Notes under the pieces: generated by a model
Told to the model about the DNA's origin: nothing
Seen by the model: only the letters and a program-made list of their open reading frames with translations
Database searches by the model: none
Translations under genes and position numbers: made by a program
Origin: Tsukamurella sp. 8F
Lineage (GTDB): Bacteria > Actinomycetota > Actinomycetes > Mycobacteriales > Mycobacteriaceae
Assembly: GCF_029167375.1 (NCBI RefSeq)
Contig: NZ_JARFTP010000002.1
Location: 62,001-126,000 of the forward strand
DNA: 64,000 nucleotides
Direction of reading: 5' to 3'
Part shown: piece after piece, positions 45,718 to 63,313 of the stretch
Numbering within the stretch: position 1 is the first letter of the stretch
Layout of the letters: each line of letters opens with the position of its first letter

Positions 45718-46055
45718 CGGATACCGAGCAGACGCCCAATCTGCCGACGCTGGACGACGTCGAGGAGGCGATGCGCGACGTCGTCGACCCGGAGCTGGGG
45801 ATCAACGTCGTCGACCTCGGCCTGGTCTACGACATCAGGGTCGACGACGATGCGGCGGCGCTGCTGGACATGACCCTGACGTCCGCGGCCTGCCCCCTCA
45901 CCGACGTGATCGAGGACCAGACGCGTTCCGCGCTGGTCTCGAGCGGACTGTGCACCGACGCCAAGATCAACTGGGTCTGGATGCCCCCGTGGGGCCCGGA
46001 CAAGATCACCGACGACGGTCGTGAGCAGCTGCGGGCTCTGGGCTTCACCGTCTGA
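45714..46055 (+). CDS. sufT: SufT (MIP18/DUF59 family), 3' end supplied by the island
   Basis: Fe-S maturation factor of the DUF59 family; 113 residues with DVVDPELGINVVDLGLVYDI and TLTSAACPLTDVI. Its ATG overlaps the sufU stop. The last stretch (45968-46018) is identical to a second copy at 63212-63262. After that, 46019-46055 and 63263-63299 encode the same residues, REQLRALGFTV, with different codons and different stop codons (TGA here, TAG there). The simplest reading is that an island integrated inside the gene and brought its own 3' end, which leaves the protein unchanged. The terminator of the ancestral gene is now 17 kb away. Confidence 0.93.
   Translation: MTDTEQTPNLPTLDDVEEAMRDVVDPELGINVVDLGLVYDIRVDDDAAALLDMTLTSAACPLTDVIEDQTRSALVSSGLCTDAKINWVWMPPWGPDKITDDGREQLRALGFTV
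45968..46018 (+). repeat. attL: 51-bp direct repeat in sufT
   Basis: 51 bases identical to 63212-63262 in the same orientation, starting CAACTGGGTCTGGATGCC and ending GACGACGG. It lies inside the sufT coding sequence. Beyond it, similarity continues with silent differences to the stop codon. This is the expected left attachment site of an element that uses the 3' end of sufT. Confidence 0.88.
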
Positions 46056-47114
46056 CGTATAGGCTCCTGTCGCTGGGGCAGTATCTGCAGGTCACCGTCG
46101 GTATCTGTGCCGATTGACCGGCCGTGCTTGCGGCAGCTTCTTGGTGTATCGCACGGCTTGGGCGTTCGGTGGGTGCGGATTGAGCAAGGGCTCAGATTTG
46201 CCGATTTTTCTATCACTGTGTGTCGTTTTGTGTGTTGCTGGCGCTACGGCGGTGTGGCTCGCTGGTGATACAGGGTGGTCATGGACCGCACAGGTGTTGA
46301 ACGTGCGGGATAAAGGTGTTCTGGATGCTGCCGTAGGTATGGACTAGCCGCCTAACGCCTAAGGTTCACTTTGCACCGCGCTGCTGTAGCTGCTGCCCGA
46401 CAACGGGGCGTGGCCTTGACTCATCGGGCCGACTGCCGAACCTGGTGGTCAAGCATTTGTTCTCGCGACCTGAGTACATCCGGAAAGTGGTCCAAGAAGC
46501 CGGCGAGCTCGACCGCGACGACCGCGTCCAGGGGCTACCTCGGCGTGCTCTTCACGCCGGACTACGCCGGGTTCGGCACGCGGTTGTAGCTCCTCTAAGA
46601 GCAGGCCTGGCGGAGGGATCAGGTGTTCGATGCTGCGCACCGCGCCGACGTGGCCTCATCGCAGGCGGGAAGGACCACTCGTCGCGGCGCTGGCGGCCTG
46701 ACCGAGTCGAGGTGTGCCGCGCGTACCGGGCCCCGCGTACCGAGCCTCGCAGCCGGGGGCCCGAGGCGAAGTACGCTCTCGAGGTGGCTGTCGCAGGGCG
46801 CATCACATCACGATGACGGGGCCACCGGGCACCTAATGCGGCTCCAAGTGACCTGTGCCCTTATGTGAGCACGTGAGTGACCTCTACAAACGTCAGTGAC
46901 TTCACCGAACTTGGCGAGATTTTGTCGGTGTACGTCCTTAACTGAGCATGCAACGGGCTTAGTGGCGACTATTGGAATGTCGATTGGCGGACGGGCACAG
47001 GTGTCGTGTCAGTGTTCAACGTGGGGCGCACCTGCTGAAGACGACGACTGGCAACACGCGCTCATGACGCTATATGCCCAGGCTATCGCCGGTAGGCGAC
47101 AGTCGGCGTTTCTG
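46056..47114. other. Left island end, no supportable gene
   Basis: Just over 1 kb between sufT and the AlbA_2 remnant. The base composition is visibly less GC-rich than the core. Open frames here are short and lack family features or ribosome sites (for example 46114-46347 and 46445-46816 on the plus strand), so I call no gene. The only structured element is the 20-bp repeat at 46217-46236. The region could be the former attachment/regulatory arm or the scar of a lost recombinase gene. Confidence 0.55.
46217..46236 (+). repeat. 20-bp repeat, left copy (possible arm site)
   Basis: TGTGTGTCGTTTTGTGTGTT, identical and in the same orientation at 63115-63134. It lies 198 bases inside the left repeat. 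It is AT-rich compared with the genome, as arm-type recombinase sites often are. Confidence 0.7.
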
Positions 47115-47561
47115 TCAGTCGCCGTGAAAGAACAGGGTCTCGAACAATGCTGCAGCGTCAAGACGCTCGTCGGTCGACACCTGGATCTCGCCTGCGGTCA
47201 CTTCGTCGTTGGCGTCTTCGGTCAGCATCCAGGAGACCTGCACCTCGGTGGCTTCGGGGGCCCGTGCGACAACCACATAGTCGTCCACGTCAGTGGTCCA
47301 AGGCACATTCGGGCGAAAAGACTCTGGAGTGAGGACGACCTCGGCGTTGTCGTCGCGGTTGTTCCAGGTAACGGGATAGCCGCGAGGAGTGAACTGCAGA
47401 GTCGACGGATCGAACGAAGGTCCATACGGCTCCTGGGTGCGCACGACCGGCTCGACGGCCTTCTCGAAATCGGCGTTGCCCGGGTCCAGATGATCGAGGA
47501 CTTCGCAGCCGTGGAAGGTCACGATCAAGTGAGGTTTTGCGACGAATCGGTCTCGGCTAGT

Positions 47562-48651
47562 TGTTCTGACCACGGACGTTAGGGGCACGGCGTGGTGAGG
47601 TGACAAGACGAAGACCTCCGGGTGAAGTGCGAACTGTCGAGGAAACGCACACACCCTGGAGGTCTTCGTGGTCCACCGTAACGCGTCGTTGTCGGAAACC
47701 GGGCGGCTGCGGCTCGCTCGGTGTGTGGTCGATGAAGGGTGGCCGGTGCGTCGTGCTGCGGAGCGGTTCCAGGTTTCGCCGACGACCGCAGCGCGCTGGG
47801 CCGGCCGGTACCGCGCTGGTGGCGCCGCGGCGATGGCCGATCGACCGAGTCGCCCGCATCACAGCCCCATGCGCACACCGACGCGGACCGAACGCCGCAT
47901 CGTCAAGGTCAGGGTTCTGCGTCGCTGGGGCCGGCACGAATCGGTTACCTACTGGGTTTGCATCCGTCGACGGTGCACAGGGTGCTCACCCGCTACGGCC
48001 TGGCACGGTTGCGCTGGCTCGACCGTCCCACCGGCCGAGTGGTGCGGCGGATCGAGACCACCGCCTGCGGTGAGTTGGTGCACGTTGATGTCAAGAAGCT
48101 CGGCAAGATCCCTGCCGGCGGCGGCTGGCGGATGCTCGGGCGCGAGGTCGGCGGCCGCAACTCCCAGGCCGACCGCAGCAGCGGCCGGTTCAACAAGTCC
48201 CGCCAACCGCTGCGCGGGCATCATTTCCTGCACACCGCCCTCGATGGGCACTCCCGGATGGCCTACAGCGAGATCCTGACCGATGAACGGAAAGAGACTG
48301 CGGCAGCGTTCTGGATCCGCGCCAACACATGGTTCGCAGAGCGCGGGATCCTTGTTCGGAAAGTGTTGACCGACAACGGATCATGCTACCGCTCACATGC
48401 CTTCCGGGATGCGCTCGGCGTCATTGAGCACCGCCGGACCCGCCCCTACCGACCCCAAACCAACGGCAAGGTCGAACGTTTCCACCGCACACTCGCCGAC
48501 GAATGGGCCTACGCCCAGCTCTACCGCACCGACGCCGAACGCAACCAGCGATACCCGGCCTGGCTACACACCTACAACTACCATCGAGGCCACACGGCAC
48601 TCGGAGGAAAGCCGCCCGCGAGCCGCGTCCCTAACCTCACAGGGCAGAACA
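47562..48651 (+). mobile_element. IS481-family insertion sequence, 1090 bp
   Basis: Ends are 23-bp imperfect inverted repeats (18 of 23 matching), both starting TGTTCTG and ending GTTAGGG: 47562-47584 and the complement of 48629-48651. A perfect 6-bp target duplication GCTAGT flanks it (47556-47561 and 48652-48657). This fits the NCTAGN target known for IS481. It interrupts the AlbA_2-type gene. The exact duplications indicate a fairly recent insertion. Confidence 0.92.
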
Positions 48652-48656
48652 GCTAG
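47668..48656 (+). pseudogene. IS481 transposase with a -1 frame break
   Basis: DDE transposase. The N-terminal helix-turn-helix part (SETGRLRLARCVVDEGWPVR, SPTTAARWAGRYRAGG) is in one frame from GTG 47668. The catalytic core is in another frame: HVDVKKLG (first Asp), LTDNGSCY (second Asp) and NGKVERFHRTL (Glu). The frames meet at TGGGG (47926-47930), where one more G restores RRWGPARIGYLLG. This is either a one-base deletion or a programmed -1 slip; the family usually has a single ORF. The TAG stop at 48654 is not part of the IS: it comes from the duplicated target site. Confidence 0.82.
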
Positions 48657-49743
48657 TGATGCGGATACCCATCCCGGTTAGCCCGACACCGAGAACGTGC
48701 TCGCGTCCTTTCATGATGTGTTCGTCCTTGTCGGCGCGCCAGGTGGCCAGGGCGTCAGCGCGTTCCTGGCGCGATAGCGGCTCGGCGCGACCGTAGAGGC
48801 TTGCTGCGAACTGATGTGCTCCTGGCGGGAAAGCGGTCGCTGCCCCGCGCTGTGCCTTCTTACTGAACTGCTCTTCCCGGTAGTCCCGTAGCTTCTCCAG
48901 GACCTCTTTCACACGATCGACGCGGTGGACCCGGCCGAGCGTTCGACATCAAGGGTGATCGGCGGCTTCCCAGCACCCCGCGCGCGTTCGACAAGTGCTA
49001 GGACCTCCCCGGCGCGTGCAGGTCGGGTATTGCTGGTTCCTCGCACATAGATTGCGCCGTCCTCGAGGCTGTCACGGCGGTCGTCGCCCTGGTAGCTCTT
49101 GTGGCAGGGGTACATCGCCTGGCCGTCCTCGGGTGGCTGAGCGATGACGAACAGAACCTCGTTGCCGGAGTCGATGCCGATCCTGCCGAATTCGAACGCG
49201 GGGAACTGCGGTCCGAGGTATGGACGGAGACGGTCTTCGAGCTCATGAGCCTCGGTTCCGCGCGGGACTCCGGGGCACTGTTCTGTTGTGCACCGATCAC
49301 CAAGACCGCGTAGCCACGGAAGTATCGGACCGCATCTTGTGGCCGGCGGTTCGCCGCTCCGAGAAGGAACTTCGCAATCTTGGCCGTGGTCGCCTTGCTT
49401 GGCATGTCGAGTGAGCCCTTGACCTCAAGGTAGTTCGTCTCCGCTTCATCACCGACCGCGATTACATGATCGAGGATGCTCTGGAGCGCTCGCGCGCCGA
49501 GCGGGATGATGTTGGTGTCGAACTTGGTTGGCGCAGGCTCAGCGCCGGGAAAGCGACGGATCGGGCATGGTGGGATTCTCCCATTCGGGACGACCGCGAT
49601 ATCGCGGAACTTGGATCCACTGTCGCTGTCTTGGAGGACTCTGGCCCATATGTCCAGAGCGCCCTCCGATCCGACGCTCGTGACATGCTGCGATAGCGGA
49701 GTTGCGCGCGGACGGAGCGATCAGACCTGGAAGACTGCTAGGC

Positions 49744-52700
49744 ATGCCGGTGACGATCCATGACCTCCTCGATGACCTCCGCTCTCGCGCTATCGATGAG
49801 CGCGACAAGGGCGACAAGTTCGAGCGGCTGATCAAGGCCTACTTGTCGAACGAGCCCGAGTGGACCGCGCGCTTCGAGAACGTCTGGCTGTGGTCCGAGT
49901 GGGCGGGCCGAGGCACGCGCACCGACACCGGCATCGATCTAGTCGCCCAGCGCCGCGACGGTCAAGGCCTGGCGGCGATCCAGTGCAAGTTCTACGCCGC
50001 CGACCACAAGGTCGCGAAGTCCGACATCGACTCGTTCATTTCTGCCTCGGCCAAGAGCGAGTGGACGGAGCGCTACGTCTTCGACACCGCCGCTGGATGG
50101 AGCGGAAACGCCGAGGAAACCCTCGAAGGGGTCGCCCAACGAATCGACATCGGATTCTTCGACGACGCACGCGTCGACTGGTCGCAATACTCCTGGTCCA
50201 AACCGGATGCCGTTGCATTGGCGACCGCCCATAAGCCGCGCCGACATCAGCGTGCTGCCCTGGACGCTGTGCGGACTGGACTGGCCGAACACGACCGCGG
50301 CAAACTGATCATGGCCTGCGGCACGGGCAAGACCTTCACGGCGCTCAAGATCGCTGAGGACCTCGTCGGCGCGGGTGGCCGCGTGTTGTTCCTGGTGCCC
50401 TCGATTCAGCTGCTCTCGCAGACGCTGCGGGAGTGGATGGCCCAGTCGGAGGTCGACATTCGGCCATTCGCGGTGTGCTCGGACGTGCGCGTTGGACGCC
50501 GCACCAGCACGGCCGACACGGGCGACATCTCGACGATCGACCTCACCGAGCCCGCGACCACGGACGCTCCGACACTGGTGAAGCGCGTGAACGCCGGAAC
50601 GGACGCCGCGGACCGGATGACGGTGGTGTTCTCCACCTATCAGTCGATCGACGTCATCTCGCAGGCGCAGCTGCTCGGCCTTGGCGACTTCGACTTGGTG
50701 ATCTGCGATGAGGCGCACCGCACCACGGGGGTGACGCTCGCCGGGCAGGACGAGTCGCACTTCGTCAAGGTCCACGACAATCGGTTCATCCAAGCGGCCA
50801 AGCGGCTGTACATGACCGCGACGCCGAAGGTCTTCGACGACGCGGTGACGAAGAAGGCGATCGAGAACGACGCCGTGCTCGCGGACATGAATCGGGAAGA
50901 CCAGTTCGGACCGGAGTTGCACCGCCTCGGATTTGGTGAGGCTGTCGAGAAGGGCCTGCTGACCGACTACAAGGTGCTCGTGCTGAGTGTCGAGGAGGAG
51001 TACGTCGCCGCCCACTTCCAGAAGGCGATGGCAGAGTCCGGCGAGATCCAGCTCGGCGACGCGTCGAAGCTCCTCGGCTGCTGGAACGGCCTCGCGAAGA
51101 ACTTCGGCTCCGAGATCGGGACCGCCGGCGACCGCACGCCGATGCGGCGCGCGGTGGCGTTCGCGAAGGACATCCGGTCGTCGAAGGCGGCTTCGGCCGC
51201 GTTCCCTACCCTTATTGACCGAGCACTGCAGGACGATGTCCGCGCCGGCTCAAACAGCCTGCGCGTGGAAGCGGCCCACGTCGACGGCGGAATGGGCATC
51301 CACGAGCGAAACAAGCACCTCGACTGGCTCAAAGCCGAAGCTGACCCCGATGTGTGCCGGGTGCTGACAAACGCGCGCTGCCTGTCCGAGGGCGTCGACG
51401 TTCCGGCGCTCGACGCGGTGATGTTCTTGACGCCGCGCGGGTCTCAGGTCGACGTCGTCCAGTCGGTCGGCCGCGTGATGCGGCTCGATCCGACGGGCCG
51501 CAAGAAGCTCGGCTACATCATTCTGCCGGTCGTCGTACCGTCCGGGATCCCGCCGGAGGAAGCGCTGAAGGACAACCAGCGTTATAAGGTCGTCTGGCAA
51601 GTGCTGCAGGCGCTGCGGTCCCACGACGACCGGTTCCACGCGATGGTGAACTCCATCGAGCTCAACAAGCGGCGGCCCGACCAACTGCCCATCATCGACG
51701 CCACGCCCCGCCCTCCAAGTGACGATTCGGACTCGAGTGGGGGCGGTCAGAATCAGTCCGGCGACGAGCAACTCACTCTCGACTACGGCTTCGAGGGCTT
51801 CCGCGACGCGATGTATGCCCGGATTGTCAAGAAGGTCGGGGAGCGCAAGTACTGGGACACGTGGGCGAAAGAGGTCGCCGACATCGCCCACCAGCACGTC
51901 ACCCGCATCAACGGCCTACTGAATGATCCAGAGTCACCGCAAGCGGTCGAGTTCGACAAGTTCCTGACTGGATTGCGCGACTCGTTGAACGGCTCGATCA
52001 CCGAGACTGACGCGGTGGACATGCTCGCGCAGCACCTGGTCACCCGGCCGATCTTCGAGGCGCTGTTCGAGGGCTACGCCTTCGCCGAGACCAACCCCGT
52101 GGCTCAGATCATGGAGCGGATGCTCGCGAGCTTAGACGAGCACCCGCTGAGCGCCGAGAACGCACCGTTGGAGAACTTCTACGACTCCGTCCGCAGGCGC
52201 GTCGCTGGCGTCGACAACGCCGAGGGCAAGCAGAAGATCCTCATCGAGCTGTACGACAAGTTCTTCACTGTCGCGTTCAAGAAGACCGTCGACAAGCTCG
52301 GCATCGTGTACACCCCGGTGGAGATCGTCGACTTCATCCTCCGCTCCGCCGACGACGTGCTGCGCCAGGAGTTCGGCCAGGGATTGACCGACGAAGGCGT
52401 GCACATCCTCGACCCCTTCACCGGCACCGGCACGTTCCTCGTCCGGCTGCTGCAGTCCGGCTTGATCGAGCCGCACGACCTGGCCCGCAAGTACGCCAAC
52501 GAGCTCCACGCCAACGAGATCCTGCTGCTCGCCTACTACATCGCCGCCGTCAACATCGAGACCACCTACGCCGACCTGGCGGGGGAGCAGACCGAGTTTC
52601 CGGGCCTGGTGCTGACCGACACGTTCCAATCCTGGGAGCCCGACGACACCCCCGACCTCGGAATGTTCGTCGAGAACAACGAGCGCCTGCAGAAGCTCAA

Positions 52701-54528
52701 GAAGCTGCCGATCACGGTGATCATCGGCAATCCACCGTATTCAGTTGGCCAGGACTCGGCCAACGACGATTCGGCGAACGAGAAGTATCCCGCTCTCGAC
52801 GAAGCGATCCGGACGACCTATGCGGCGAGAGCAGCGACGTCCTCGATCAGAGGCATGTATGACTCATATGTTCGGGCACTGAAATGGGCGTCGCTTCGAC
52901 TCGGCCAGCGCGGTGTGATCGCCTACGTAACGAACGGCGGATTTCTCACTGCGAGCTCCTCGGTCGGTCTTCGAAGGTCGCTTGTAGAGGAGTTCGCGGA
53001 GATCTACGTGTTCAACCTGCGCGGCAATCGCCGTAACGCTGGAGCCGAAGGTCGACCGATCTTCGAGGCATTCGCGAAGGGGTCTGGGGGATCAATTGCC
53101 GGCATTGCAATTGTCGTGCTCGTCAAAGACGACACCCGCGAAAAGCGGGCTGCGACCTTGCGCTACGCCCAGGTGGCTGACTTTACGACCGCCCAAGAGA
53201 AGGTTGACGAACTAGTCGCGACGCAGTCGATTCTGCGTACAGAAGCGTGCGACATCATCCTGGACGAACACGGCGACTGGTTTGGGCAGCGTCGCGGTGA
53301 CTTCGCTCGATGGCTTTCTCTGCACGACCTCGATGGCCCCTCCGTATTCGGCGTCACTTCCAAAGGGCTGACAACCAATCGAGACGCCTGGGTCTACCGC
53401 GCCTCGCGAGCGTCGCTGCTTGCGGACCTGGAGCGCCTCGCGGCTACATACAGAAAAGCGCTGGACAGTGGCGTTTCTGTAAGAGATTTGCCCAGAAATC
53501 CGAGTAATATCGCGTGGTCGCGGCGCTTGTTGGCCCGATTCGCGAGCGGACAAGGAATTGAAATCGAGGACGGCGCGACGCGGCGGGCGACATATCGTCC
53601 CTTCGTGCGTCAGTTTGTATATTTTGACCCAACGTTGAATGAGGACCGTCGACGGCTGCCGATTCTATTTCCAACGTCTGAGCTGGGGACTCAAGGAATC
53701 TTGCTGACCGGGGTGTCCTCGCACTACGACTTCGGTGCTATCGCTTGCGACAGCATCCCAGACCTCCACCTCCTCGACACCGGACAGTTTTTCCCGCGTT
53801 GGCGGTACGAGAAGGTCGACGATTCCGGCATGCTCGACCTCGGCGACGGCGGCGACTCGGTGGACGGATACCGGAGGATCGACAACATCACAGACGATGT
53901 GTTGAAGCGGTTCCAGTCTCAGTATTCATCGGCGGACATAACGAAGGACGACATCTTCGACTACGTCTACGGACTCCTTCACTCGCCGGAGTACCGCGAG
54001 ACGTACGCCGCCGATCTGAAGAAGTTGCTGCCCAGGATTCCGTTCGTGCGGGACTTCGTCGGCTTCGCGACCGCTGGCCGGAGGCTGATCGAGTTGCACC
54101 TGGACTACGAGAATCAGCAGCCGTACCCGCTCGATGGTCTCGACGTGGTCGCGAAGGGGGACTCCTACGATTTCTTCGCGGTCGGCGACAAGAAGATGCG
54201 TTTCGGCGGCACCGCCAAGCAGAAGGACCGCACGACAATCCACTACAACGACCGGATAACGCTGTCTAACGTCCCGGAAGACGCCTACCGCTACACGCTG
54301 GGCAGCCGCTCGGCGATCGAGTGGATCATCGACCGTTACTACATCAAGACGGACAAGGCCTCGGGGATTGTCAACGACCCCAACGACTGGTCCCGCGAGA
54401 TAGGCGATCCAAGGTACATCCTCGACCTGCTCGCGCGGATCGTCACCGTGTCCGTCGAGACGATGAAGATCGTTGACGCACTGCCGCCGCTGGACACCCT
54501 CAAGGCGGCCGAAGACGAATCGGGATAA
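49744..54528 (+). CDS. Type ISP restriction-modification enzyme (LlaBIII/LlaGI-like)
   Basis: A single-polypeptide restriction, translocation and modification enzyme, 1594 residues. Order: Mrr-like PD-(D/E)xK nuclease (GIDLVAQ at about 64, IQCK at 79-82); SF2 helicase with Walker A ACGTGKT (191-197), DEAH (322-325), TATPK and QSVGRVMR (573-580); a coupler; N6-adenine methyltransferase with LDPFTGTG (about 889-896) and NPPY (996-999); and a C-terminal target-recognition domain. Length and domain order match the type ISP family. It should methylate one strand of an asymmetric site and cut foreign DNA after head-on translocation. ATG 49744 is preferred over 49702 because the Mrr-type start follows. 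All key motifs are intact. Confidence 0.93.
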   Translation: MPVTIHDLLDDLRSRAIDERDKGDKFERLIKAYLSNEPEWTARFENVWLWSEWAGRGTRTDTGIDLVAQRRDGQGLAAIQCKFYAADHKVAKSDIDSFISASAKSEWTERYVFDTAAGWSGNAEETLEGVAQRIDIGFFDDARVDWSQYSWSKPDAVALATAHKPRRHQRAALDAVRTGLAEHDRGKLIMACGTGKTFTALKIAEDLVGAGGRVLFLVPSIQLLSQTLREWMAQSEVDIRPFAVCSDVRVGRRTSTADTGDISTIDLTEPATTDAPTLVKRVNAGTDAADRMTVVFSTYQSIDVISQAQLLGLGDFDLVICDEAHRTTGVTLAGQDESHFVKVHDNRFIQAAKRLYMTATPKVFDDAVTKKAIENDAVLADMNREDQFGPELHRLGFGEAVEKGLLTDYKVLVLSVEEEYVAAHFQKAMAESGEIQLGDASKLLGCWNGLAKNFGSEIGTAGDRTPMRRAVAFAKDIRSSKAASAAFPTLIDRALQDDVRAGSNSLRVEAAHVDGGMGIHERNKHLDWLKAEADPDVCRVLTNARCLSEGVDVPALDAVMFLTPRGSQVDVVQSVGRVMRLDPTGRKKLGYIILPVVVPSGIPPEEALKDNQRYKVVWQVLQALRSHDDRFHAMVNSIELNKRRPDQLPIIDATPRPPSDDSDSSGGGQNQSGDEQLTLDYGFEGFRDAMYARIVKKVGERKYWDTWAKEVADIAHQHVTRINGLLNDPESPQAVEFDKFLTGLRDSLNGSITETDAVDMLAQHLVTRPIFEALFEGYAFAETNPVAQIMERMLASLDEHPLSAENAPLENFYDSVRRRVAGVDNAEGKQKILIELYDKFFTVAFKKTVDKLGIVYTPVEIVDFILRSADDVLRQEFGQGLTDEGVHILDPFTGTGTFLVRLLQSGLIEPHDLARKYANELHANEILLLAYYIAAVNIETTYADLAGEQTEFPGLVLTDTFQSWEPDDTPDLGMFVENNERLQKLKKLPITVIIGNPPYSVGQDSANDDSANEKYPALDEAIRTTYAARAATSSIRGMYDSYVRALKWASLRLGQRGVIAYVTNGGFLTASSSVGLRRSLVEEFAEIYVFNLRGNRRNAGAEGRPIFEAFAKGSGGSIAGIAIVVLVKDDTREKRAATLRYAQVADFTTAQEKVDELVATQSILRTEACDIILDEHGDWFGQRRGDFARWLSLHDLDGPSVFGVTSKGLTTNRDAWVYRASRASLLADLERLAATYRKALDSGVSVRDLPRNPSNIAWSRRLLARFASGQGIEIEDGATRRATYRPFVRQFVYFDPTLNEDRRRLPILFPTSELGTQGILLTGVSSHYDFGAIACDSIPDLHLLDTGQFFPRWRYEKVDDSGMLDLGDGGDSVDGYRRIDNITDDVLKRFQSQYSSADITKDDIFDYVYGLLHSPEYRETYAADLKKLLPRIPFVRDFVGFATAGRRLIELHLDYENQQPYPLDGLDVVAKGDSYDFFAVGDKKMRFGGTAKQKDRTTIHYNDRITLSNVPEDAYRYTLGSRSAIEWIIDRYYIKTDKASGIVNDPNDWSREIGDPRYILDLLARIVTVSVETMKIVDALPPLDTLKAAEDESG

Positions 54529-54530
54529 CG

Positions 54531-55679
54531 ATGGCAACGGGAACCGATGCTGGGCTGTTGGAAAGCCCGAAGCCGCAGTCGGTCTACAAGCACGCGATCC
54601 TGGAGCAGTACATCATCCAGTACGCGACCATGACCGCCAGCAAGCTGACCCCAAAACGGTGCGTCCTCTTCGATGGCTTCGCGGGGAGGGGACGGTTCGA
54701 CACCGGCGAGGCAGGATCAGCCGAGCATATGATGGTCGCTGCGCAGAAGCGGAAGGGGTCGACCCAGATCGACTTGCTTCTGGTGGAACAGGCACATAAG
54801 GACTACGAGATCCTCGACAAGGTCGCTGACGAGTACCGCTCCCGCGGTATCCGTATCGACAGTCACCACGACGACTGCAAGAACCGCCTCGACGAGATGC
54901 TTCAACTTGCGAAGCAAGCCAGCCTGTTCGTCTTCCTCGACCCGTGCGGTGCGGTGCTCCCGATGGATTCAATCAGGGACGTGCTCGCCAAGCGCGGGAC
55001 ATGGCCGCGGACAGAGGTGCTTCTGAACTTCAATGCTGGCCTGATTCGGCGCGCGGGCGGACAGTTCAAGAAGGGACAGCTAGACCTTGGCGGAGTGGCT
55101 CAGGCGGACAGGGTGTGCGGCGGTGAATGGTGGCGCGACGTGGCGATTCGAGCCCATGAGGACTCCGGCGGTCAAAACTGGGAGTCGGCGGCTGAAGCGG
55201 TCGCCCACGAGTACGCCCGTCGTCTAACCGCCGCGACACCGTACGGCTCGGTGGTCGCGCCGGTCCGCCGACAGGTGCACCAACAACCCATCTACTACCT
55301 GATTCTCCTCACCTCGCAGCCCCACGGATTCTGGGTCTTCGGCGTGTCAGCGGCCAAAGCTCGGGAGAAGTGGATCGACTTCCTCGGCCCCGATCCGGAC
55401 GAGCGCGAGAGCATGCTGTGGGACACCGTGGCCGATCAGCTCGAGCGTGAGCGCGCGTGCGCCATCCAGCACATCACCAACAATCTGCGTACGTTGACCG
55501 CCGACGGCAAGCCGAAGAAGGCCGTCGATAACGTGCATGCGATCTTCGGAGCCCTCTACGGCGAAGCGAGGGAGACTGCTTTCACTGCGGCACTACGGGA
55601 GTTGGTGAAGTCCGGCGAACTCGAGTACGTGACAAAAGGGAGTAAGCCGAGGGACTTTGTGTTTCGGCGGGTGAGCTAG
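54531..55679 (+). CDS. tcmP: Three-Cys-motif partner protein TcmP (first copy)
   Basis: 382 residues of the TcmP family, named because it occurs beside three-Cys-motif (DUF5131) proteins; biochemical function not established. The start region KHAILEQYIIQYATMT and FDGFAGRGRFDTGEAGSA is the family hallmark and resembles a Rossmann methyltransferase-like glycine loop. VFLDPCGAVLPM follows a DP motif position. The C-terminal 90 residues look like a winged-helix tail (AALRELVKSGELEYVTKGSK). It starts 2 bases after the restriction enzyme stop, so it is in its transcript. Its 3' end overlaps the DUF5131 gene by 4 bases on the other strand. Confidence 0.85.
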   Translation: MATGTDAGLLESPKPQSVYKHAILEQYIIQYATMTASKLTPKRCVLFDGFAGRGRFDTGEAGSAEHMMVAAQKRKGSTQIDLLLVEQAHKDYEILDKVADEYRSRGIRIDSHHDDCKNRLDEMLQLAKQASLFVFLDPCGAVLPMDSIRDVLAKRGTWPRTEVLLNFNAGLIRRAGGQFKKGQLDLGGVAQADRVCGGEWWRDVAIRAHEDSGGQNWESAAEAVAHEYARRLTAATPYGSVVAPVRRQVHQQPIYYLILLTSQPHGFWVFGVSAAKAREKWIDFLGPDPDERESMLWDTVADQLERERACAIQHITNNLRTLTADGKPKKAVDNVHAIFGALYGEARETAFTAALRELVKSGELEYVTKGSKPRDFVFRRVS

Positions 55680-56428
55680 GCCGATGTCCGGGCCAGCTCC
55701 GGCATGTCGTCCCAGGTACGGCCGTCGAGCTCGCGACCGTTGGCCTTAGGCGTCCTGCCGCCCCACTGCTTGAAGAAGAACGCGACGTCGGCCGCGAGGC
55801 ACTGGTCGCGGATGTCCTCCACCCACGCCGGGTCCATGGGTCGCGCGCGTGGACCGGACTCGCCGCCGGCGATGACCCAGTCGATGCCGCGCAGGTCCAG
55901 GCCGGGCAGTGCTGTCAGGAGGGGTTCGCACGAGAGGAAGCGCGTTGCGGCCGGCACGGCACGTAGGTGGTCAATTCTGTCGACGACGTCGGACGATTCG
56001 ACAGAGACGCCCATCCAAAGGTTGTTGGGCCACTCGAGCTTATCGGCGATTCGCGCTGTGCGATGGGCGCGCTTGGTGAGTACTTGATATGTGTGCTGCG
56101 GTGTCTCGCGGATCACATCGAATACCTCGCGGATGAAGCCGAGCGGGACCTTGGCGTGGAAGAGGTCGCTCATCGAGTTGACGAACACGACCTTGGGGGC
56201 ACGCCAGGTGAAGGGTTGTTGCAGCGACCGAGGGTGGAGTGTCACTCCGAACCCCGGGCCTGAGGTGCGAGGGTCGCCGTCGTGCTGATACTTCTCGGCC
56301 CCCATCGCCTTGAGCCTCTTGGCGAGCGCGAGGGCGTAGCAGTTGTCGCAGCCAGCTGCTACGCGGTCGCAGCCCGTGACGGGATTCCACGTGACCTCTG
56401 TCCACTCGATGGCGGTGCCGCTTGCCAT
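55676..56428 (-). CDS. DUF5131 (phage Gp37/Gp68-like) three-Cys-motif protein
   Basis: 250 residues of the Gp37/Gp68 family. Three cysteines at the N-terminus, WNPVTGCDRVAAGCDNCYA (Cys20, Cys27, Cys30), recall radical-SAM-like or other Fe-S binding. Family blocks follow: VFVNSMSDLFH, PQHTYQVLTKRAHRT, LWMGVSVES, FLSCEPLL, WVIAGGESG and FFFKQWGG. The molecular role is not established. ATG 56428; the frame opens further upstream without similarity. It lies between two TcmP genes, its known partner family, convergent with the first and divergent from the second. Confidence 0.88.
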   Translation of the reverse strand: MASGTAIEWTEVTWNPVTGCDRVAAGCDNCYALALAKRLKAMGAEKYQHDGDPRTSGPGFGVTLHPRSLQQPFTWRAPKVVFVNSMSDLFHAKVPLGFIREVFDVIRETPQHTYQVLTKRAHRTARIADKLEWPNNLWMGVSVESSDVVDRIDHLRAVPAATRFLSCEPLLTALPGLDLRGIDWVIAGGESGPRARPMDPAWVEDIRDQCLAADVAFFFKQWGGRTPKANGRELDGRTWDDMPELARTSA

Positions 56429-56665
56429 GTGTCTCCCATCGCTGCCTGTGGTGCTGCCTATTGTGCACCCTCCCCAGAACAATCCGTTAACTCACGTCAC
56501 AGTGGTCACGTCGACTCGCGACTGTGTCATGTACTCCTCGGTGTGACGAGCGTCCCTATAATCAGTCCAAAGTGGGCTGATCGTCAGCGTGGCTAACGAT
56601 GTTTCCTGTCGCCGTCGGGGCACATCAGACCGGCACCGCCCATCCTCAGACAGGAGCGAACCGCT

Positions 56666-57778
56666 ATGGCAGGTAGCAACCCCGTACCGTGGTCAGCTGA
56701 TCAGCACACCAAGGCCAAGCATGCCGTATATGCCCAGTACCTCGACAAATGGATGCCCATCATGGTCAATGGCTGGGGAGCAGACATCACGTACGCGGAG
56801 GGCTTCGCAGGCCCGGGAGTCTATCTCGACGGCTCCGCCGGCTCTCCGGTGATCGCAGTCAAGGCGCTCGTCGGCAACAAGGCCATTCGCACCAAGGTGA
56901 GAAATGGTGGAATCCGGTTCGTCTTCATCGATCGCGATCAACGGTGCATCGATCTGCTGCCGATGGAGATAGCGAAAGCAACCGCGCCTGTCCCTCTTGA
57001 CGGACTGAGCGCTCACGGCGTCCACGTGACGGTGGAGAAGGGGGACTGCGAGCCAGATCTGCAGCGTGTGCTGACCCGGGAGCGGGCATGGGGGCGACCC
57101 ATCCTCGCCGTACTCGACACGTGGGGCGGGGCAATCTCGTTTGATCTTGTCCAACGGGTCGCGGAGAACCCTGGCAGCGAGGTGATCATCACCATGCAAC
57201 CGCAGTACTTCTCGCGCTTCGCCTCCGTCGACTCGATCGAGCATGGTGACCGAGTGTTCGGAGGGTCTAGCTGGCGTGAGGTTGCAGGCCAGCCACCCGA
57301 GAAGAAGGATCGCTGGTTGTTGCAGCGATACCGCCAAACCATTCAGCAAGCGGGGTTCCAGTACGTGCTGGACTTTGAGCTCATCGATAAGCGCGGTCAG
57401 TCCCTGTTCTTGGTGTTCGGAACGACCCACGAGAGAGGCCTAACCAAGATGAAGGAGGCCATGTGGGAGGTCGATGATATCGCCGGCGTTGGGTACCGAG
57501 ATCCGCGAGATCCGAACCAGGAGGCCCTCGCGATTGAGATCGAACCGAATACTGCGCCGCTCAAGCGGCTGATCGTGGACCATCTCCGCGCGCTTCCTGG
57601 GAACCAGGCTACCGTCAACCACCTTCGCAAGTTCGCTTTGCGAAGCACCGTGTACAAGGAGAGTCAAGCGGCGTCGGTTGTTCGTGAGATGGTCGGCGAG
57701 GGACAGCTCACACGCACTGGCGGAGGATTGCACCGCTCGCGACTTTCATCCACCGACGTGGTCGCACTGCCGACGTAG
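56666..57778 (+). CDS. tcmP: Three-Cys-motif partner protein TcmP (second, divergent copy)
   Basis: 370 residues, same family as the gene at 54531 but clearly diverged. Shared layout: KHAVYAQYLDKWMPIM, then YAEGFAGPGVYLDGSAGSP, matching the KxxxxxxYL and GFAGxGxYxxGxxGS pattern; LAVLDTWGGAISFDL at the DP-motif position; and a winged-helix-like tail (NHLRKFALRSTVYKESQ). The ribosome site is CAGGAG before ATG 56666. Transcribed away from the DUF5131 gene, with 237 bases between. Having two TcmP types around one DUF5131 gene suggests a multi-subunit system. Confidence 0.83.
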   Translation: MAGSNPVPWSADQHTKAKHAVYAQYLDKWMPIMVNGWGADITYAEGFAGPGVYLDGSAGSPVIAVKALVGNKAIRTKVRNGGIRFVFIDRDQRCIDLLPMEIAKATAPVPLDGLSAHGVHVTVEKGDCEPDLQRVLTRERAWGRPILAVLDTWGGAISFDLVQRVAENPGSEVIITMQPQYFSRFASVDSIEHGDRVFGGSSWREVAGQPPEKKDRWLLQRYRQTIQQAGFQYVLDFELIDKRGQSLFLVFGTTHERGLTKMKEAMWEVDDIAGVGYRDPRDPNQEALAIEIEPNTAPLKRLIVDHLRALPGNQATVNHLRKFALRSTVYKESQAASVVREMVGEGQLTRTGGGLHRSRLSSTDVVALPT

Positions 57779-57854
57779 AGCGCTGCTTGAGATCAAATGG
57801 CGGGGGAGCAACTGCTCGAGAGTGCGCGGCCCTCGTTCCGTACCGTGGAGGAGC

Positions 57855-58026
57855 ATGAAGGAGATCGTGCATTGGTGCGAGGTCTGCGGCACGGAGGAAC
57901 TGCTGACTTCCGAAGAGGCGTACCGGGGCGGCTGGGACTTCCCGCTGAAGATGGGAAGTGGGGTGTCATCTCCCCGCGCACGTGTGGATCCTGCCCGATG
58001 AACGCCACGGTCTGGTGGCCACCGCT
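57855..58026 (+). pseudogene. Small zinc-ribbon protein, frameshifted
   Basis: Starts MKEIVHWCEVCGTEELLTS with a CxxC pair. In the next frame the text continues WGVISPRTCGSCPMNATVWW with a second CxxC pair, and in a third frame VEQLSARQRKVLARILNEKP. One extra base in the GGG at 57953-57955 and one in the GGG at 58033-58035 would restore a single protein of roughly 90 residues with two Cys pairs, a common small zinc-ribbon type in actinobacteria. Ribosome site GTGGAGGAGC precedes the ATG. As read here it stops after 48 residues. Confidence 0.5.
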
Positions 58027-58482: not shown

Positions 58483-58538
58483 CACTGTGATCATCCGACT
58501 CGGCCGCGCCCGGCACGGCTGCCTCCTAGGCTGACGGC

Positions 58539-60359
58539 ATGCATATCGAGCAAGTCCACATCAGGCGTCTTTTAGGCTTTGAGACCCTGTCGCTTGACGT
58601 GGATCCGGCCCTTCAACTCATCGCAGGGCCGAACAACGCTGGAAAGTCTTCGTTCATCCGTGTACTCGAAGCCTTTTTCTCGGATCCGACAGCCGACGAT
58701 TTCAGGCGTCTGAAGCCGCTGAATGACTACTACGTCGATGGCGGCCGCAGGATGCTGTCGAGCATCAAGGTCCACTTCGGTGGACTCACTGACGCCGAGA
58801 CCGACGAGCTGGACGGCACAGTCGGCCGCGACGAGACCTTCTGGGTCCAGATCACGTGCTCGCGAAATGGCAAGATTAGTTACCGCACGTGGCGGGGTAC
58901 AGACGCACGATCTCGCGAGATCTACGAATGGGTGCTTCAGTCGTTCGACTTCGTGAAGATCCCCTCGATCAGGGTGAGTGATGCTGACCAGGGTGACGCG
59001 GACCAGTCATTGACGCGGCTCCATGACACGCTGGAGGGGGTACTGGTTCGCTCGGGAAGCTCCCGCTCCACGCAACTCCAGAAGGACTTCGCCAAGGCAA
59101 TCGAGCCTGTAGAGAATCTGGTGCGGGAGGTCCTCAGCGAGTCGGTACAGTCGGTCGCGGTCGAACTCCCTTTCCAGGATCCGGTCCTCGGAGTTGACCT
59201 GCCGACGCCCCGGCACGCGCTGCGCGGGATGCTCCGGGAAGCTGTCATCACCAGTCAGGACGACGTCGTAGTCCCGATCGCCGAGCGCGGCACGGGATTT
59301 CAGTCGGCTCTAGTGCTGGGTATCCTCCGTTACGTCTCGTTGAAGAGCAGACAGGCAGGCACCAACGTCCTCTTCGCCGTCGAAGAGCCTGAGGCATTCC
59401 TCCACCCGCAGACGCAACGGGCGATGGCCAAGATCCTGAAGGACATCTCGGCGGAGGCACAGTTGCTTGTAACGACACACAGTCCGGTGCTGGTCGACTC
59501 GTTTTCCGTCACCAGGATTGCGCGACTTCCGCTCAGTCCGGAGGGTATGACGTACTCAGCGTCCAAACCGGACTTGGCGGTTGACGAAGAGGGGCGGTTG
59601 ACTCGCTACTGCGACGCGACCAACAGCGAGCTGGTGTTCGCCAGCTCGGTGATCCTGGTCGAGGGCCACAGCGACAAGCTCGTTATCGACTTTCTGTTGG
59701 AGAGGATCACCGGTGGTCCGGGTGGACACTACGCCCTGGGCATCGCGGTGATCGAGGCGTCCGGGATCACGACGATCTCCCATCTGCTCCGGCTCGCCCA
59801 GCTCTTCGGCGTCCGCGCCTACGTGCTCACCGACAAGGACGGCGTGCACAAGAACGGGGACAACAAGCGCGCTCTGGTCGAGATCCTCAAGGCCAAGGAC
59901 CCGAAGCCGCCCACACTCTTCCTCAACAGTCTGCGAGAGCTGGCTGACCGGCAGGTGAAGACCCTCAAGGCTGCACTCGAGCACCAGGAGGAGCTCAACA
60001 CGATGTTGAAGCAGTGGGACGCGTTCGTGCTGAGCTCCGATCTCGAAGGCCTGCTCCTCGACGTGGTCGGGCAAGAGAAGCTGGCGAAGTTGCTCGGCCC
60101 TGACGAGACAGGGGAAGTAAGTAAGGAGACCGCGGAGACGTTCGCGACAGGGACCGCCGGCCGCGAGGCGATGGCGGCGTACCTCGGTGCGAAAGGGTGG
60201 AACTCCGACCGCAAGAAGTCTGGCAAGGCGAAGCCGCACATTCCGTCGGCTTTGCTGCGGCAGCACCTCGGATCGGCGTCGGGACATCGCCGCGCCATCA
60301 AGCCGTTGACGAATTGGCTGAACGAGATCGTAGACGCGCATAGGCGCGCGCCGCTTTGA
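58539..60359 (+). CDS. OLD-family ATP-dependent nuclease (AAA + TOPRIM)
   Basis: 606 residues. N-terminal ABC/SMC-like ATPase: Walker A GPNNAGKSS (30-38), Walker B region VEEPEAFLHPQT, switch TTHSPVLVDSF. C-terminal TOPRIM nuclease: VILVEGHSDK with Glu375 and VLTDKDG with Asp432/Asp434. This is the architecture of OLD proteins, which cut DNA and act against phages alone (class 1) or with a UvrD-like helicase (class 2, as GajA with GajB). No helicase gene is adjacent, so it is either class 1 or works with the next gene. ATG 58539. Confidence 0.9.
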   Translation: MHIEQVHIRRLLGFETLSLDVDPALQLIAGPNNAGKSSFIRVLEAFFSDPTADDFRRLKPLNDYYVDGGRRMLSSIKVHFGGLTDAETDELDGTVGRDETFWVQITCSRNGKISYRTWRGTDARSREIYEWVLQSFDFVKIPSIRVSDADQGDADQSLTRLHDTLEGVLVRSGSSRSTQLQKDFAKAIEPVENLVREVLSESVQSVAVELPFQDPVLGVDLPTPRHALRGMLREAVITSQDDVVVPIAERGTGFQSALVLGILRYVSLKSRQAGTNVLFAVEEPEAFLHPQTQRAMAKILKDISAEAQLLVTTHSPVLVDSFSVTRIARLPLSPEGMTYSASKPDLAVDEEGRLTRYCDATNSELVFASSVILVEGHSDKLVIDFLLERITGGPGGHYALGIAVIEASGITTISHLLRLAQLFGVRAYVLTDKDGVHKNGDNKRALVEILKAKDPKPPTLFLNSLRELADRQVKTLKAALEHQEELNTMLKQWDAFVLSSDLEGLLLDVVGQEKLAKLLGPDETGEVSKETAETFATGTAGREAMAAYLGAKGWNSDRKKSGKAKPHIPSALLRQHLGSASGHRRAIKPLTNWLNEIVDAHRRAPL

Positions 60360-60521
60360 TTCTTCCTGTGATGCGTGCTCGAACTTCGTGATCTGTGTGG
60401 ACCGCAACATCGCATACACGCGTGCGATATTGGAGCCAAGGGCCTCCCTGGTTTGAATCACTGTCGCTGCCGGCCATGGAATCTGCACACAGGCTCGCCT
60501 TGTGGTGGCAACCTTTGATGG

Positions 60522-61679
60522 ATGGCGACAGCGGAAGAGGAGGCTGGGCGTCGTTTGTCCGAGACCGTGCTGCGCGACGTCGGTCAGCCGATCCCGCACG
60601 AGGCTCGTGACTACTCGCTGGCCTCCTATCGGTCTGAGTTCTCGTCGCGAGAGGCACCGCTGCCGGTCCTGCTGCGGTACGCGCTGTCCCTCGTCGGGCT
60701 GAAGCACCACGGACCGCGCGAGAAGGTCGCGTGGTGGGTGCCGTTCACGTATCGGGGCTACCCGTGCGAGCTTGCGCACGAGAAGTTCGGCGTCCGACTG
60801 AGAATCGTCGGCGACCTCAGTGAGGAGCACGCCGACGACCTCATGGCCGAAGTGCGTCAGAAGCTGACGTTGGCGGTCAAGACCGTCGAGCAGCTGCTCT
60901 CCGAGAGCGCGGGCGGGATCCTCGACGCCGGCGACGTCACCGTGGTGAACCAGCACTTGCAGCTGCGGCGCGCCTACGACTACTTCCGTGAGCGCGCGAG
61001 CAACCCGGATGTGGTTGAAGACGTCCGCGAGAGCGGCATGAGCGATGTGGGCGAGTGGTGGTCGATCCTGTTGGGGGAGGAGGTCATGACGCTCAACGCC
61101 AGTCACGATCTCGTCGCCGCGATCTCGGCGTTCCTCAGCTCGCTGGAGCACGACCTTGTCTTGGCGCTGCCCTTCCTTGATTTCGACCCGAGCATTGACT
61201 GCCTGACCAAGATCATCGGAGCCCGTTGGGGTGACAAATGGCGGCGGGTGGTGGGTCACTCCGACCCGGAAGCAGTTCGTCTCCGGGAGCGTCTGACTGA
61301 AGTGATCGAGCGGTGGCGGAACCCGTACTCGCACGGTGGGTTCGAGAAGGGGCACGGTGCCACCGTGTACCTACACACGCCGGGACTCGGGGCGCTCCCG
61401 GTCGGGTTGTCGGGCATCCGCGACAGCCCTCTGTTCTCTTTCCATGCGGTTTCGGGTACCGACATCGAGGGCGTGTTCGCTCTCTTCGACGAGATCGACG
61501 TCTACTTCGCCAAGGCCTTCCCTCACGCGATGGGCTGGATCGACTCCGGCCTCGACGTCCAGTTCAACGCGGCGTTCCGGATGGAGGTGATCGAGCGCGT
61601 CGGGGCCGAAGGCAGCCTCGCGCGGATGATCGACGTTTACGCCAACCGGGTCGACCGGATCACGAACATGGACTTCTAG
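60522..61679 (+). CDS. HEPN-motif protein, possible RNase partner of the OLD protein
   Basis: I do not recognise the family. 385 residues, soluble, mostly helical. Near the C-terminal third it has ERWRNPYSHGGFEK, which fits the HEPN ribonuclease motif Rx4H (Arg266, His271) embedded in a helix, as in many toxin and abortive-infection proteins. The N-terminal half (VAWWVPFTYRGYPCELAHEKFGVRL) is unlike known HEPN toxins. It follows the OLD-type gene on the same strand after 162 bases. The function as an RNase is inference from the motif and the neighbourhood. ATG 60522 is the first start; no strong ribosome site. Confidence 0.6.
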   Translation: MATAEEEAGRRLSETVLRDVGQPIPHEARDYSLASYRSEFSSREAPLPVLLRYALSLVGLKHHGPREKVAWWVPFTYRGYPCELAHEKFGVRLRIVGDLSEEHADDLMAEVRQKLTLAVKTVEQLLSESAGGILDAGDVTVVNQHLQLRRAYDYFRERASNPDVVEDVRESGMSDVGEWWSILLGEEVMTLNASHDLVAAISAFLSSLEHDLVLALPFLDFDPSIDCLTKIIGARWGDKWRRVVGHSDPEAVRLRERLTEVIERWRNPYSHGGFEKGHGATVYLHTPGLGALPVGLSGIRDSPLFSFHAVSGTDIEGVFALFDEIDVYFAKAFPHAMGWIDSGLDVQFNAAFRMEVIERVGAEGSLARMIDVYANRVDRITNMDF

Positions 61680-61768
61680 CGAGGCTCTCGAACCTCGTGC
61701 CGACAGACCAAGTGGGCGGCGAGATTGACGTAGATTGTCCTGCTTAACGACCGTTTGCGGAGCCATCG

Positions 61769-62691
61769 TCAGGATGACTCGACGACCCTCCATCGGAAAT
61801 CGACGAACGGCGGGACGTACTGACGATCGCTTGTGTCCTCGCGCTGCACGTCAAGAATGTCGACGACTGCGAGTCGCCCGTGCGTGTTCATGAGCACGAC
61901 ACTCTGGCCGACGCACGGAGTGACGGGGATTGTCCAGGCGTGAGCTGCTGTGCGACGGCGTGGTCGACGCCCTTGACTCGAACGAGCCCGACGGCCTTGA
62001 TGGGACCTTTGTAGACGTACACCGAGTTGTCGGCGCATCCGCTGACCTGCAGCGCGAACTCAGAATGGCGGACGCCCCAGCGAAAGGTCTTCTGCGGCGC
62101 TTCTTCGTAGACGAAGTGCGTCTCGCCGGCGAGGTCCGGGCTTCTCCACTGTGTTGGGTCACTGCGCAGATCTTGATGCTCGAGCCGTGTGGCCCGCTCT
62201 CGAAGAGTTGCGATCGGCGTCGCGCTGTCGAGATTGGCCGGGAGTCCCGCGGCCCACCGCCACAGGTCTTCGATCTGCTCGGCACCCGGGGACTCTTGCT
62301 GGCTTCCCGGAGCGTGGTTGAAATCGAAGCCCTTAGGCATCCTGTCGCCGAGCCACGCCGGTAGGACGTAGGAGCGGTTATCGACGAAGAGGGCTGACAG
62401 CCAGGCGGCCTCACGAGACGCGTCGACCTCGGCGATCCAGCGGTTCTCTTTGCCTACGCCAGACTCAGGGATGGTGTCGGCCCTCTGGACGTAGTTCTGG
62501 TCCACGATGAGCAGCACACGCTTACAGTCTGAGACTCGACGCATGAAGCCGTTGAGGTCGTCGCCGTAGTCGACGTCCGCGTCGATGAGGACGTCGAAGC
62601 CGAGCGCCTTGAGCTGCGCCGCGAGCAGGCGCACCCACTCCCGGTGCGCCTCCGATGTCCAGGCGTACGAAATGAACAAGTCTGCGCCCAC
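61769..62691 (-). pseudogene. SEFIR/TIR-domain protein with a C-terminal frameshift
   Basis: The N-terminus is a SEFIR/TIR-like domain: MGADLFISYAWTSEAHREWV, then LKALGFDVLIDADVDYGDD, SDCKRVLLIVDQNYV and ENRWIAEVDAS. It looks complete (about residues 1-140) and may still be made. The first frame reads to a stop at 61888 (267 residues). The better C-terminus, AHAWTIPVTPCVGQSVV to FVDFRWRVVESS, is in the next frame and ends at 61769. One base lost near 61941-61952 would explain it (ancestral length about 306 residues). SEFIR/TIR proteins act as NAD-consuming or signalling parts of anti-phage systems; catalysis here is not shown. Convergent with the HEPN-motif gene. Confidence 0.7.
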
Positions 62692-63211
62692 ACGCTTCCT
62701 TACGTCGATTCGCTCAAGGTTGCCTAGCGTGAGCAGCCGTCCTCACGAGACTACGGGGCGTTTCGGCCCGAGTGCGGGGACACCAGTTGAAGCTTCATCC
62801 ACGTCTGGAACGAGACGACCCGTGGTCGCTCGGCTGCTTCGCCGGATTCCAGCCGCCCGGTGGTTAGACGACCAACCGTGAGACGCCCGCACAGCAGTTG
62901 GGGCGCATCCGCTCGCGGGTACCGAGACTGCGATCGCATTCCACGGAGCGGTGGAGGGGGCGGTTACCGCGGAACACCGCGCCGCCACAGAGATCGTCGC
63001 TGCGCAGGCGGCGGGGGTGACGAGCCGTGAAAGCTACAAGCATGCTCGGCCCGTTGTAACCCGTGGTCCACCGTCGTCCCCTACCGTCCCCCGCTCCGGT
63101 GTCCTTGAAATTTTTGTGTGTCGTTTTGTGTGTTTTTCGTCGACCATCATCCCGATCGTTCAGTCCATTGATGCAGGTAGAAGCACATATCTGGTCAACA
63201 AGGCCGTAGGC
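62692..63211. other. Right island end, no gene
   Basis: 520 bases between the SEFIR gene and the right repeat. No credible coding frame. It holds the 20-bp repeat copy at 63115-63134, in an AT-richer patch around 63100-63140. The open frame on the minus strand at 62864-63292 exists only because it crosses the sufT copy. Confidence 0.6.
63115..63134 (+). repeat. 20-bp repeat, right copy (possible arm site)
   Basis: TGTGTGTCGTTTTGTGTGTT, same orientation as 46217-46236. It ends 77 bases before the right 51-bp repeat. If the island circularises, the two copies would flank the core site at -77 and +198. Confidence 0.7.
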
Positions 63212-63262
63212 CAACTGGGTCTGGATGCCCCCGTGGGGCCCGGACAAGATCACCGACGACGG
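63212..63262 (+). repeat. attR: 51-bp direct repeat, sufT 3' fragment
   Basis: Identical to 45968-46018. It is followed by the probable original end of sufT (63263-63299), which encodes REQLRALGFTV and TAG. This fragment has no start and is not a gene. It marks where the chromosome resumes. Confidence 0.88.
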
Positions 63263-63313
63263 CCGCGAGCAGCTGCGCGCCCTCGGGTTCACGGTCTAGC
63301 CGGGACGGCATAG

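Follow-up and report, generated by a model that had tools for sequence, protein, structure and literature searches.

Two defence islands bounded by copies of the sufT 3' end in Tsukamurella, with features of site-specific integration

The DNA analysed here (hereafter the window) is a 64,000-nucleotide stretch of contig NZ_JARFTP010000002.1 of Tsukamurella sp. 8F, in which a block of about 17.2 kb (46056-63211) lies between two copies of the 3' end of the sufT gene (Table 1). We assign the gene to sufT because its product carries an FeS_assembly_P domain and because of its position: the family scan placed an aminotransferase class-V/cysteine desulfurase-type gene and then a NifU_N/SufU-type gene upstream of it, and the identical suf gene order is annotated in T. 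tyrosinosolvens NCTC13231. An earlier reading made from the sequence only had described an island bracketed by a 51-bp perfect direct repeat, both copies of which are sufT coding sequence, and both statements hold. The left copy completes an intact sufT, and the right copy, which has no gene start, is a bare sufT 3' fragment. Beyond the perfect repeat the two copies can be aligned without gaps over 86 bp in total, with 92% identity, as far as the stop codons (TGA at 46053-46055 on the left, TAG at 63297-63299 on the right), and the differences between the copies past repeat position 51 are synonymous. An exact match of 51 bp in 64 kb is no chance event, and a search of the whole genome (70 contigs) with the 86-bp sufT tail gave no match other than these two at E<=0.001. 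No tRNA was found in the window, and a tRNA as the integration target was thus rejected.

The sequence-only reading had also proposed a search for other islands that end in a sufT 3' fragment, and one more was found. Our genus sample consisted of 16 Tsukamurella genomes, including the window genome (G000) and the one designated G005, with up to 40 candidates scored. The sufT tail is present in all 16 genomes, two full-length tails occur only in G000 and G005, and neither of these two has a third; a second match in G014 is 31 bp long and lies elsewhere. In G005 (4 contigs) 12.9 kb separates the two full tails, which enclose a 12.8-kb defence island whose recognised cargo is entirely different from that of the window island. 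It includes a type II CBASS (cyclic oligonucleotide-based anti-phage signalling system) locus composed of a cyclase, an E1-E2 gene and a JAB-TIR-SAVED effector, together with an IrrE-like peptidase, helix-turn-helix (HTH) genes and an HNH protein. This island is also present in T. tyrosinosolvens NCTC13231, where it aligns over 12971 bp with a single gap and without any mismatch. Because the two are nearly letter-identical, we count them as one occurrence, not two, and G005 and NCTC13231 may be one species. Two observations on the NCTC13231 record should be mentioned. It is labelled plasmid 5 (NZ_LR134447.1, L139), and its suf genes, lgt and pyk give it the appearance of a chromosomal segment; moreover, the CBASS effector is annotated there as two genes and in G005 as one, and the islands differ by one gap. 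As the window genome is a 70-contig draft, one could suspect that two contigs had been misjoined at the repeat. However, the same arrangement is present in G005 and in the NCTC13231 record, which is labelled complete, and we consider an assembly artefact hardly credible.

Wider surveys gave no further case. A sufT-tail match at E<=1e-8 was obtained in 380 of the 401 genomes of the family, and two matches only in G000 and G005; this survey scored two candidates per genome, with places taken among the matches listed, and short second tails could be missed. In a separate survey, 8 of 101 genomes had two tail matches, and in 6 of them the second was a fragment of 24-46 bp located elsewhere, which was dropped. 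We also inspected 80 named sufT loci; since their sequence ends no later than 10 kb after sufT, longer islands would not show. In ten of them a further short stretch matches the sufT tail of the locus itself, and the pair of arm-type repeats described below is present in none. In Gordonia malaquae (L071:10498-10536) the sufT stop is followed, at a distance of about 160 bp, by a degenerate second copy of the sufT tail (79% over 39 bp), as if it were the scar of an earlier insertion. In Tomitella biformata (L078:10319-13977) the last 33 bp of sufT, including the stop, recur exactly 3.6 kb downstream, and the matching sequence continues; the two long open reading frames (ORFs) between look by eye like a regulator and a desaturase-reductase, and no integrase was recognised there.

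Empty sites for the G005 island were found as well. The gene which follows the right sufT copy in G005 stands no more than about 17 bp behind a single sufT in five of the 15 other genomes (G001, G003, G006, G013 and G015), and the right flank of G005 matches that of G003 over 1713 bp at 90%. In G014 this gene is placed 1.6 kb away, and the remaining genomes have other sequence at this position. Compared with G003, the single-copy genomes G001, G004 and G008 (L042, L045 and L041) have about 3.1, 0.2 and 4.0 kb of extra DNA between sufT and a conserved flavoprotein gene, and hence the spot downstream of sufT is variable beyond the two islands.

Comparison of the two islands allowed us to place the probable exchange. 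In the right copies of both, sufT homology starts at the identical base: the sequence reads ...TAGGC or ...TCCCC and then CAACTGGG, where sufT itself has AAGAT CAACTGGG. The left and right copies of G005 differ for the first time at repeat position 19, and the letter of the right copy at this position is also that of G006, G003 and G015, the nearest relatives of G005 by upstream identity among those compared. This would place the exchange within the first 18 bp. The right tail of G005, which equals the G003 tail over all 86 bp, would be native from position 19 onwards, and its left tail would be the island's. The right tail of the window island equals that of the single-copy genome G004 over 86 bp; this is weaker support for a native right tail, as the genomes are distant (the window genome has 78-82% DNA identity to its congeners upstream of the site). 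Both presumed island-borne tails end in TGA and both right copies in TAG, and the stops in 14 other congeners are TAG in 12, TAA in one and TGA in one (G010). Judging from these differences, the last ~70 bp of the intact sufT in the window were probably supplied by the island. Direct sufT repeats could also arise if a circle containing part of sufT were inserted by Campbell-type homologous recombination, for which no dedicated recombinase is needed, and indeed no tyrosine or serine recombinase is present in the islands. Nevertheless, two islands with unrelated cargo begin their homology at the identical base, the allele change in G005 falls within the first 18 bp rather than being spread along the tail, and in both islands the distance between the arm-type repeats and the right core is fixed. 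We thus regard homologous insertion as very improbable.

These repeats are the next feature which the two islands share. A 20-bp perfect repeat is located just inside both ends of the window island (46217-46236 and 63115-63134); an 18-bp part of this inner repeat, with 3 mismatches allowed, occurs at two places in the window, as opposed to 0.02 expected. The heptamer TTTTGTG is found three times in the window island, always at the ends, and five times in the G005 island, four of them at the ends. At the right end, both islands have a pair of TTTTGTGYG half-sites, whose starts are exactly 100 and 88 bp from the core. When aligned without gaps, the right arms are alike at 18 of 26 positions, and the 78 bp from arm to core are identical at 23 of 78. 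It is therefore the spacing of the right end that is kept and not its sequence. The longer motif TGTGYGTNGTTTTGTGYG, with at most 1 mismatch, has four matches in the 16 whole genomes, which are the four ends of the two islands, and TTTTGTGNNNNNTTTTGTG has two, both of them island right ends, its reversed control having none. A near-identical arm pattern occurs at 7 places in the 401 family genomes, 4 of them being island ends; the places in G019, G135 and G148 were set aside, since 3-kb stretches around them hold long unrelated ORFs and no integrase by eye. Viral contigs with the motif pair number 22, of which 21 have a G+C content of at most 46%, and the motif is less specific in such low-G+C viral contigs. 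Five of the 22 have a tyrosine recombinase, and in one of these five (L159) the motif lies inside an ORF.

As a general rule for tyrosine integrases, direct repeats beside the core are arm sites, and we predict the same role for the TTTTGTGYG repeats. In both islands the core is shared with the gene, the 3' end of the gene is restored, and arm-type repeats are present on both sides; the layout is that of a tyrosine-integrase attachment site. It is from such features that we infer the class of the recombinase, the position of the crossover, the role of the arm motif and the past mobility of the islands. The block 46056-63211 would be a mobile defence element that integrated at the 3' end of sufT by tyrosine-integrase-type recombination, with a crossover in the first ~18 bp of the repeat and the paired repeats inside both ends serving as arm-type binding sites. 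The element would bring its own sufT end, from the codons for NWVWM through the TGA stop, in such a way that sufT stays whole after integration and the native tail is displaced 17 kb downstream. SufT acts as an Fe-S (iron-sulfur) maturation factor and has been described as essential for M. tuberculosis (PMC9045647), and because of this essentiality an element in sufT would have to keep the gene whole. The main text of PMC10654092 mentions neither SufT nor Rv1466. We consider it highly probable that both islands entered the sufT 3' end by recombination of this type with a replacement tail. Site-specific integration, which the earlier reading had suggested from the repeats, thus gains support from the second island, the five empty sites and the arm motif at a fixed distance.

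Several observations weigh against this interpretation. The independent islands number only two. The left half-site stands at unequal distances from the sufT stop (170 bp in the window and 179 bp in G005, which also has one at 46 bp), and one half-site of G005 lies in the middle of the island. Reversed TGTGYGTNGTTTTGTGYG, used as a control with at most 1 mismatch, gave 3 matches in three of the 16 genomes. No match to PF00589 or PF00239 at E<=0.001 was found in either island in six frames with stops read through. The sufT core was found neither in phage records nor in viral contigs (0 in a pattern search of the latter). Some match to the sufT tail was obtained in 7 plasmid records, of which only the Tsukamurella one was examined, and this is the NCTC13231 record. 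Finally, the gene for a DyP-type peroxidase that follows the right copy in the window, an identification which Pfam confirmed on the complete gene, was not found adjacent to sufT in other Tsukamurella (13 of 15 judgeable, 3.6 to 16 kb downstream; the contigs of G002 and G007 end 188 and 990 bp after sufT, and adjacency cannot be judged there). The closest relative of this peroxidase (72%) is in G007, on a separate contig without a sufT tail, other matches are 45-50% identical, and no relative matched the right flank of the window genome. The expected order in relatives (sufT, terminator and DyP peroxidase with a single repeat copy) was accordingly found in none of the 13, and the claim that the core genome is continuous outside the repeats stands on the left and is not borne out on the right.

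How such elements could have moved is a separate problem. The window genome has 8 and G005 has 14 matches to PF00589, with 4 and 3, respectively, to PF00239, none of them inside the islands; going downstream, the first PF00589 match is reached after about 55 kb in G000 and 27 kb in G005. As the longer arm motif occurs nowhere else in the 16 genomes, it stands beside none of these genes. Because both islands are without a detectable integrase, they would be non-autonomous now, the enzyme having been either lost after insertion, as in a cis-mobilizable element (CIME), or supplied by another element. On one hand, each island may once have carried its own integrase, with the arm sites left as fossils of classical CIME decay. 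The left end of the window island would fit this: about 1 kb of it, a yifB fragment included, has no recognised gene, and a frame-split IS481 is close by. CIMEs are described as remnants that keep their att sites without recombination genes and can be common (PMC5704250, PMC7563491). However, neither a tyrosine nor a serine recombinase had left a trace detectable at E<=0.001 even with stops read through, and the loss would have to have happened twice, amid unrelated cargo, while the arm sites and the spacing of the right end stayed exact. We find such decay quite possible, stopping a little short of calling it probable.

On the other hand, the islands may never have had an integrase and may, as satellites with an attP only, have depended on the integrase of a helper, either a phage or a conjugative element, which acts in trans and recognises the core and arm sites that they carry. 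Both of the two islands are without a detectable integrase, have kept their arm sites with a matching right-end spacing, and differ in cargo. In addition, an IMG/VR contig (L158:4529-6074) has a pair of TTTTGTGTG sites with the same spacing of 12 bp, starting 257 bp behind a tyrosine integrase gene. This contig is a lead only, as it is one of 22 motif matches and may be due to chance. Against a helper, none with the motif was found in the 16 Tsukamurella genomes, the sufT core was found in none of the viral contigs or phage records searched, and the argument rests on two islands. We hold this explanation tentatively and with some doubt. Direct searches for a donor gave little: blastn of the sufT tail against phages returned 10 records with 25-35 bp at E 0.7, which were taken as chance, and tblastn of the 29-aa sufT tail gave no phage match, as did the right end of the G005 island. 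The left end of the window island matched 4 plasmid records, by short or internal matches, and its right end none. Two of the plasmid records matched by the sufT tail, from Nonomuraea and Microbacterium, cover 100% and 92% of the query. Leaving the history of the enzyme aside, the best reading of both islands is that they are stranded, integrase-free, CIME-like integrative elements which use sufT.

By its gene content the window island can be taken as a defence island, and its components are listed in Table 1. We scanned 13 of its ORFs in at least one of Pfam, PADLOC and NCBIfam, and 9 ORFs of the G005 island in PADLOC. Among the scanned ORFs of either island there was no conjugation or mobilisation module, with no search aimed at relaxases, and no virion or packaging gene, with PHROGs not run. 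The G+C content is 59-65% per kb in the island vs 64-69% across the 6 kb on its left. The 385-aa protein encoded next to the OLD-like gene may be its partner, possibly an undescribed one. The yifB-like fragment near the left end has 85% identity to the middle of a Tsukamurella yifB gene. The IS481 element was rejected as the mover of the block, since it is located inside the island and leaves the sufT repeats unexplained.

Table 1. Features of the sufT locus and of the window island (window coordinates)
Feature	Position	Strand	Basis or remark
sufT, intact	45714..46055	+	Pfam FeS_assembly_P E=1.6e-18; 113-aa query returned sufT relatives
Left 51-bp direct repeat, putative attL core region	45968..46018	+	repeat comparison
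Probable crossover interval (first 18 bp of repeat)	45968..45985	+	carried over from G005 island
Diverged rest of left sufT tail, ends TGA	46019..46055	+	probably island-borne
Island left end, no recognised gene	46056..47114	.	holds 71-bp yifB-like fragment (46759-46829)
Left arm-type motif TGTGTGTCGTTTTGTGTGTT (predicted)	46217..46236	+	half-site TTTTGTG from 46226, 170 bp past sufT stop
Hypothetical protein, no family	47115..47654	-	407 bp resemble Dietzia plasmid gene (68%)
IS481-family transposase, frame-split (47668-48279, 47739-48656)	47668..48656	+	NCBIfam IS481 E=5.5e-78; Pfam rve_3, second frame
Type ISP restriction-modification enzyme	49702..54528	+	Pfam Type_ISP_C, ISP_coupler, Mrr_cat_2, ResIII; PADLOC REase_MTase_IIG
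TcmP (three-Cys-motif partner) protein	54531..55679	+	NCBIfam TIGR04474 E=2.9e-40; PADLOC candidates PDC-M41A/M30A
DUF5131 protein, B component of candidate defence systems PDC-M41/M30	55676..56482	-	Pfam DUF5131 E=7.4e-103; PADLOC PDC-M41B E=2e-112
Second TcmP protein	56666..57778	+	NCBIfam TIGR04474 E=8.9e-48
OLD/GajA-like AAA ATPase with TOPRIM	58539..60359	+	Pfam AAA_15, OLD-like_TOPRIM; PADLOC GajA, Old
Hypothetical protein, 385 aa	60522..61679	+	no match in Pfam, PADLOC, NCBIfam
TIR/SEFIR-domain protein (bSEFIR-like)	61888..62691	-	Pfam TIR_2 E=3.6e-12; PADLOC bSEFIR E=8.2e-40
Right arm-type motif (predicted), two TTTTGTGTG half-sites 12 bp apart	63112..63134	+	starts 100 and 88 bp before core
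Right 51-bp direct repeat, putative attR core region	63212..63262	+	repeat comparison
Diverged rest of right sufT tail, ends TAG	63263..63299	+	probably displaced native end
DyP-type peroxidase, runs past window end; right flank, outside island	63386..64000	-	Pfam Dyp_perox_C/N, complete gene L056:387-1340

The window and G005 islands, which keep sufT whole by means of a tail of their own, make the sufT site a landmark by which defence islands may be located in related Actinobacteria, and with the paired arm motif one can look for the missing integrase. A survey of E. coli left open by what means defence islands that lack mobility genes spread (PMC10121019), and the ends of the sufT islands are defined well enough for this to be tested. 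One may go further and imagine a family of sufT islands in which DNA sites, namely a sufT-tail core and paired arm repeats spaced by 12 bp, are the sole mobility parts, the anti-phage cargo is interchangeable, and a sufT-using helper, either a phage or a conjugative element, performs the insertion in trans. Neither the family as such nor this assignment of its sites and helper seems likely to us at present, both being speculative; if true, a helper-moved family would be one concrete answer to the question of how such islands move.

It remains to compare the sufT islands with known systems. Integration at the end of a gene is well precedented, as a review on integrative and mobilizable elements (IMEs; PMC5704250) shows, and what remains of the earlier remark on an unusual target is that the gene itself is unusual. 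We found no description of sufT as an integration site in the literature searched, most subscription papers being outside its reach, and nothing on sufT islands, by title, among papers on Tsukamurella genomic islands or integrases. The closest relatives by organisation are CIMEs, in which likewise the 3' end of a housekeeping gene is the site, attL/attR direct repeats enclose the cargo, and recombination genes are absent. Both sufT islands have attL/attR-like flanks (in the window the 51-bp repeat with arm-type motifs) and no detectable tyrosine or serine recombinase gene, an IS481 transposase being present in the window island. With classical CIME sizes of 1.2-13 kb (PMC5704250, PMC7563491), the 12.8-kb G005 island falls inside the range and the 17.2-kb window island is larger; further differences are that no tandem with an integrative and conjugative element (ICE) or IME was seen and that the cargo is mostly anti-phage defence. 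CIMEs by definition derive from an ICE or IME by deletion and move by accretion with such an element in the same site; no parent of either kind was found for the sufT islands.

The site-specific integrase of their own that characterises IMEs, mobilizable genomic islands (MGIs) and phage-inducible chromosomal islands (PICIs) was not detected in the sufT islands. SGI1 and the dusA islands carry their own integrase. SGI1 at trmE and the dusA islands resemble the sufT islands in using a gene end as the integration site; they differ in having a target other than sufT and in their mobilization by IncC plasmids, as described in PMC8409611. CALINs (clusters of attC sites lacking integrases), hitcher elements which would also rely on an outside recombinase, differ in being integron cassette arrays with attC sites (PMC11389934). 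The E. coli defence hotspots are similar in that the defence systems at a chromosomal site are exchanged and no mobility genes can be identified (PMC10121019); the sufT islands differ from them in having att-like ends whose limits can be set and which can be compared from one island to the other. Neither islands that sit at the 3' end of a protein gene nor att-flanked islands without an integrase are new as kinds; what is new is the sufT site, plus two defence islands with comparable ends.

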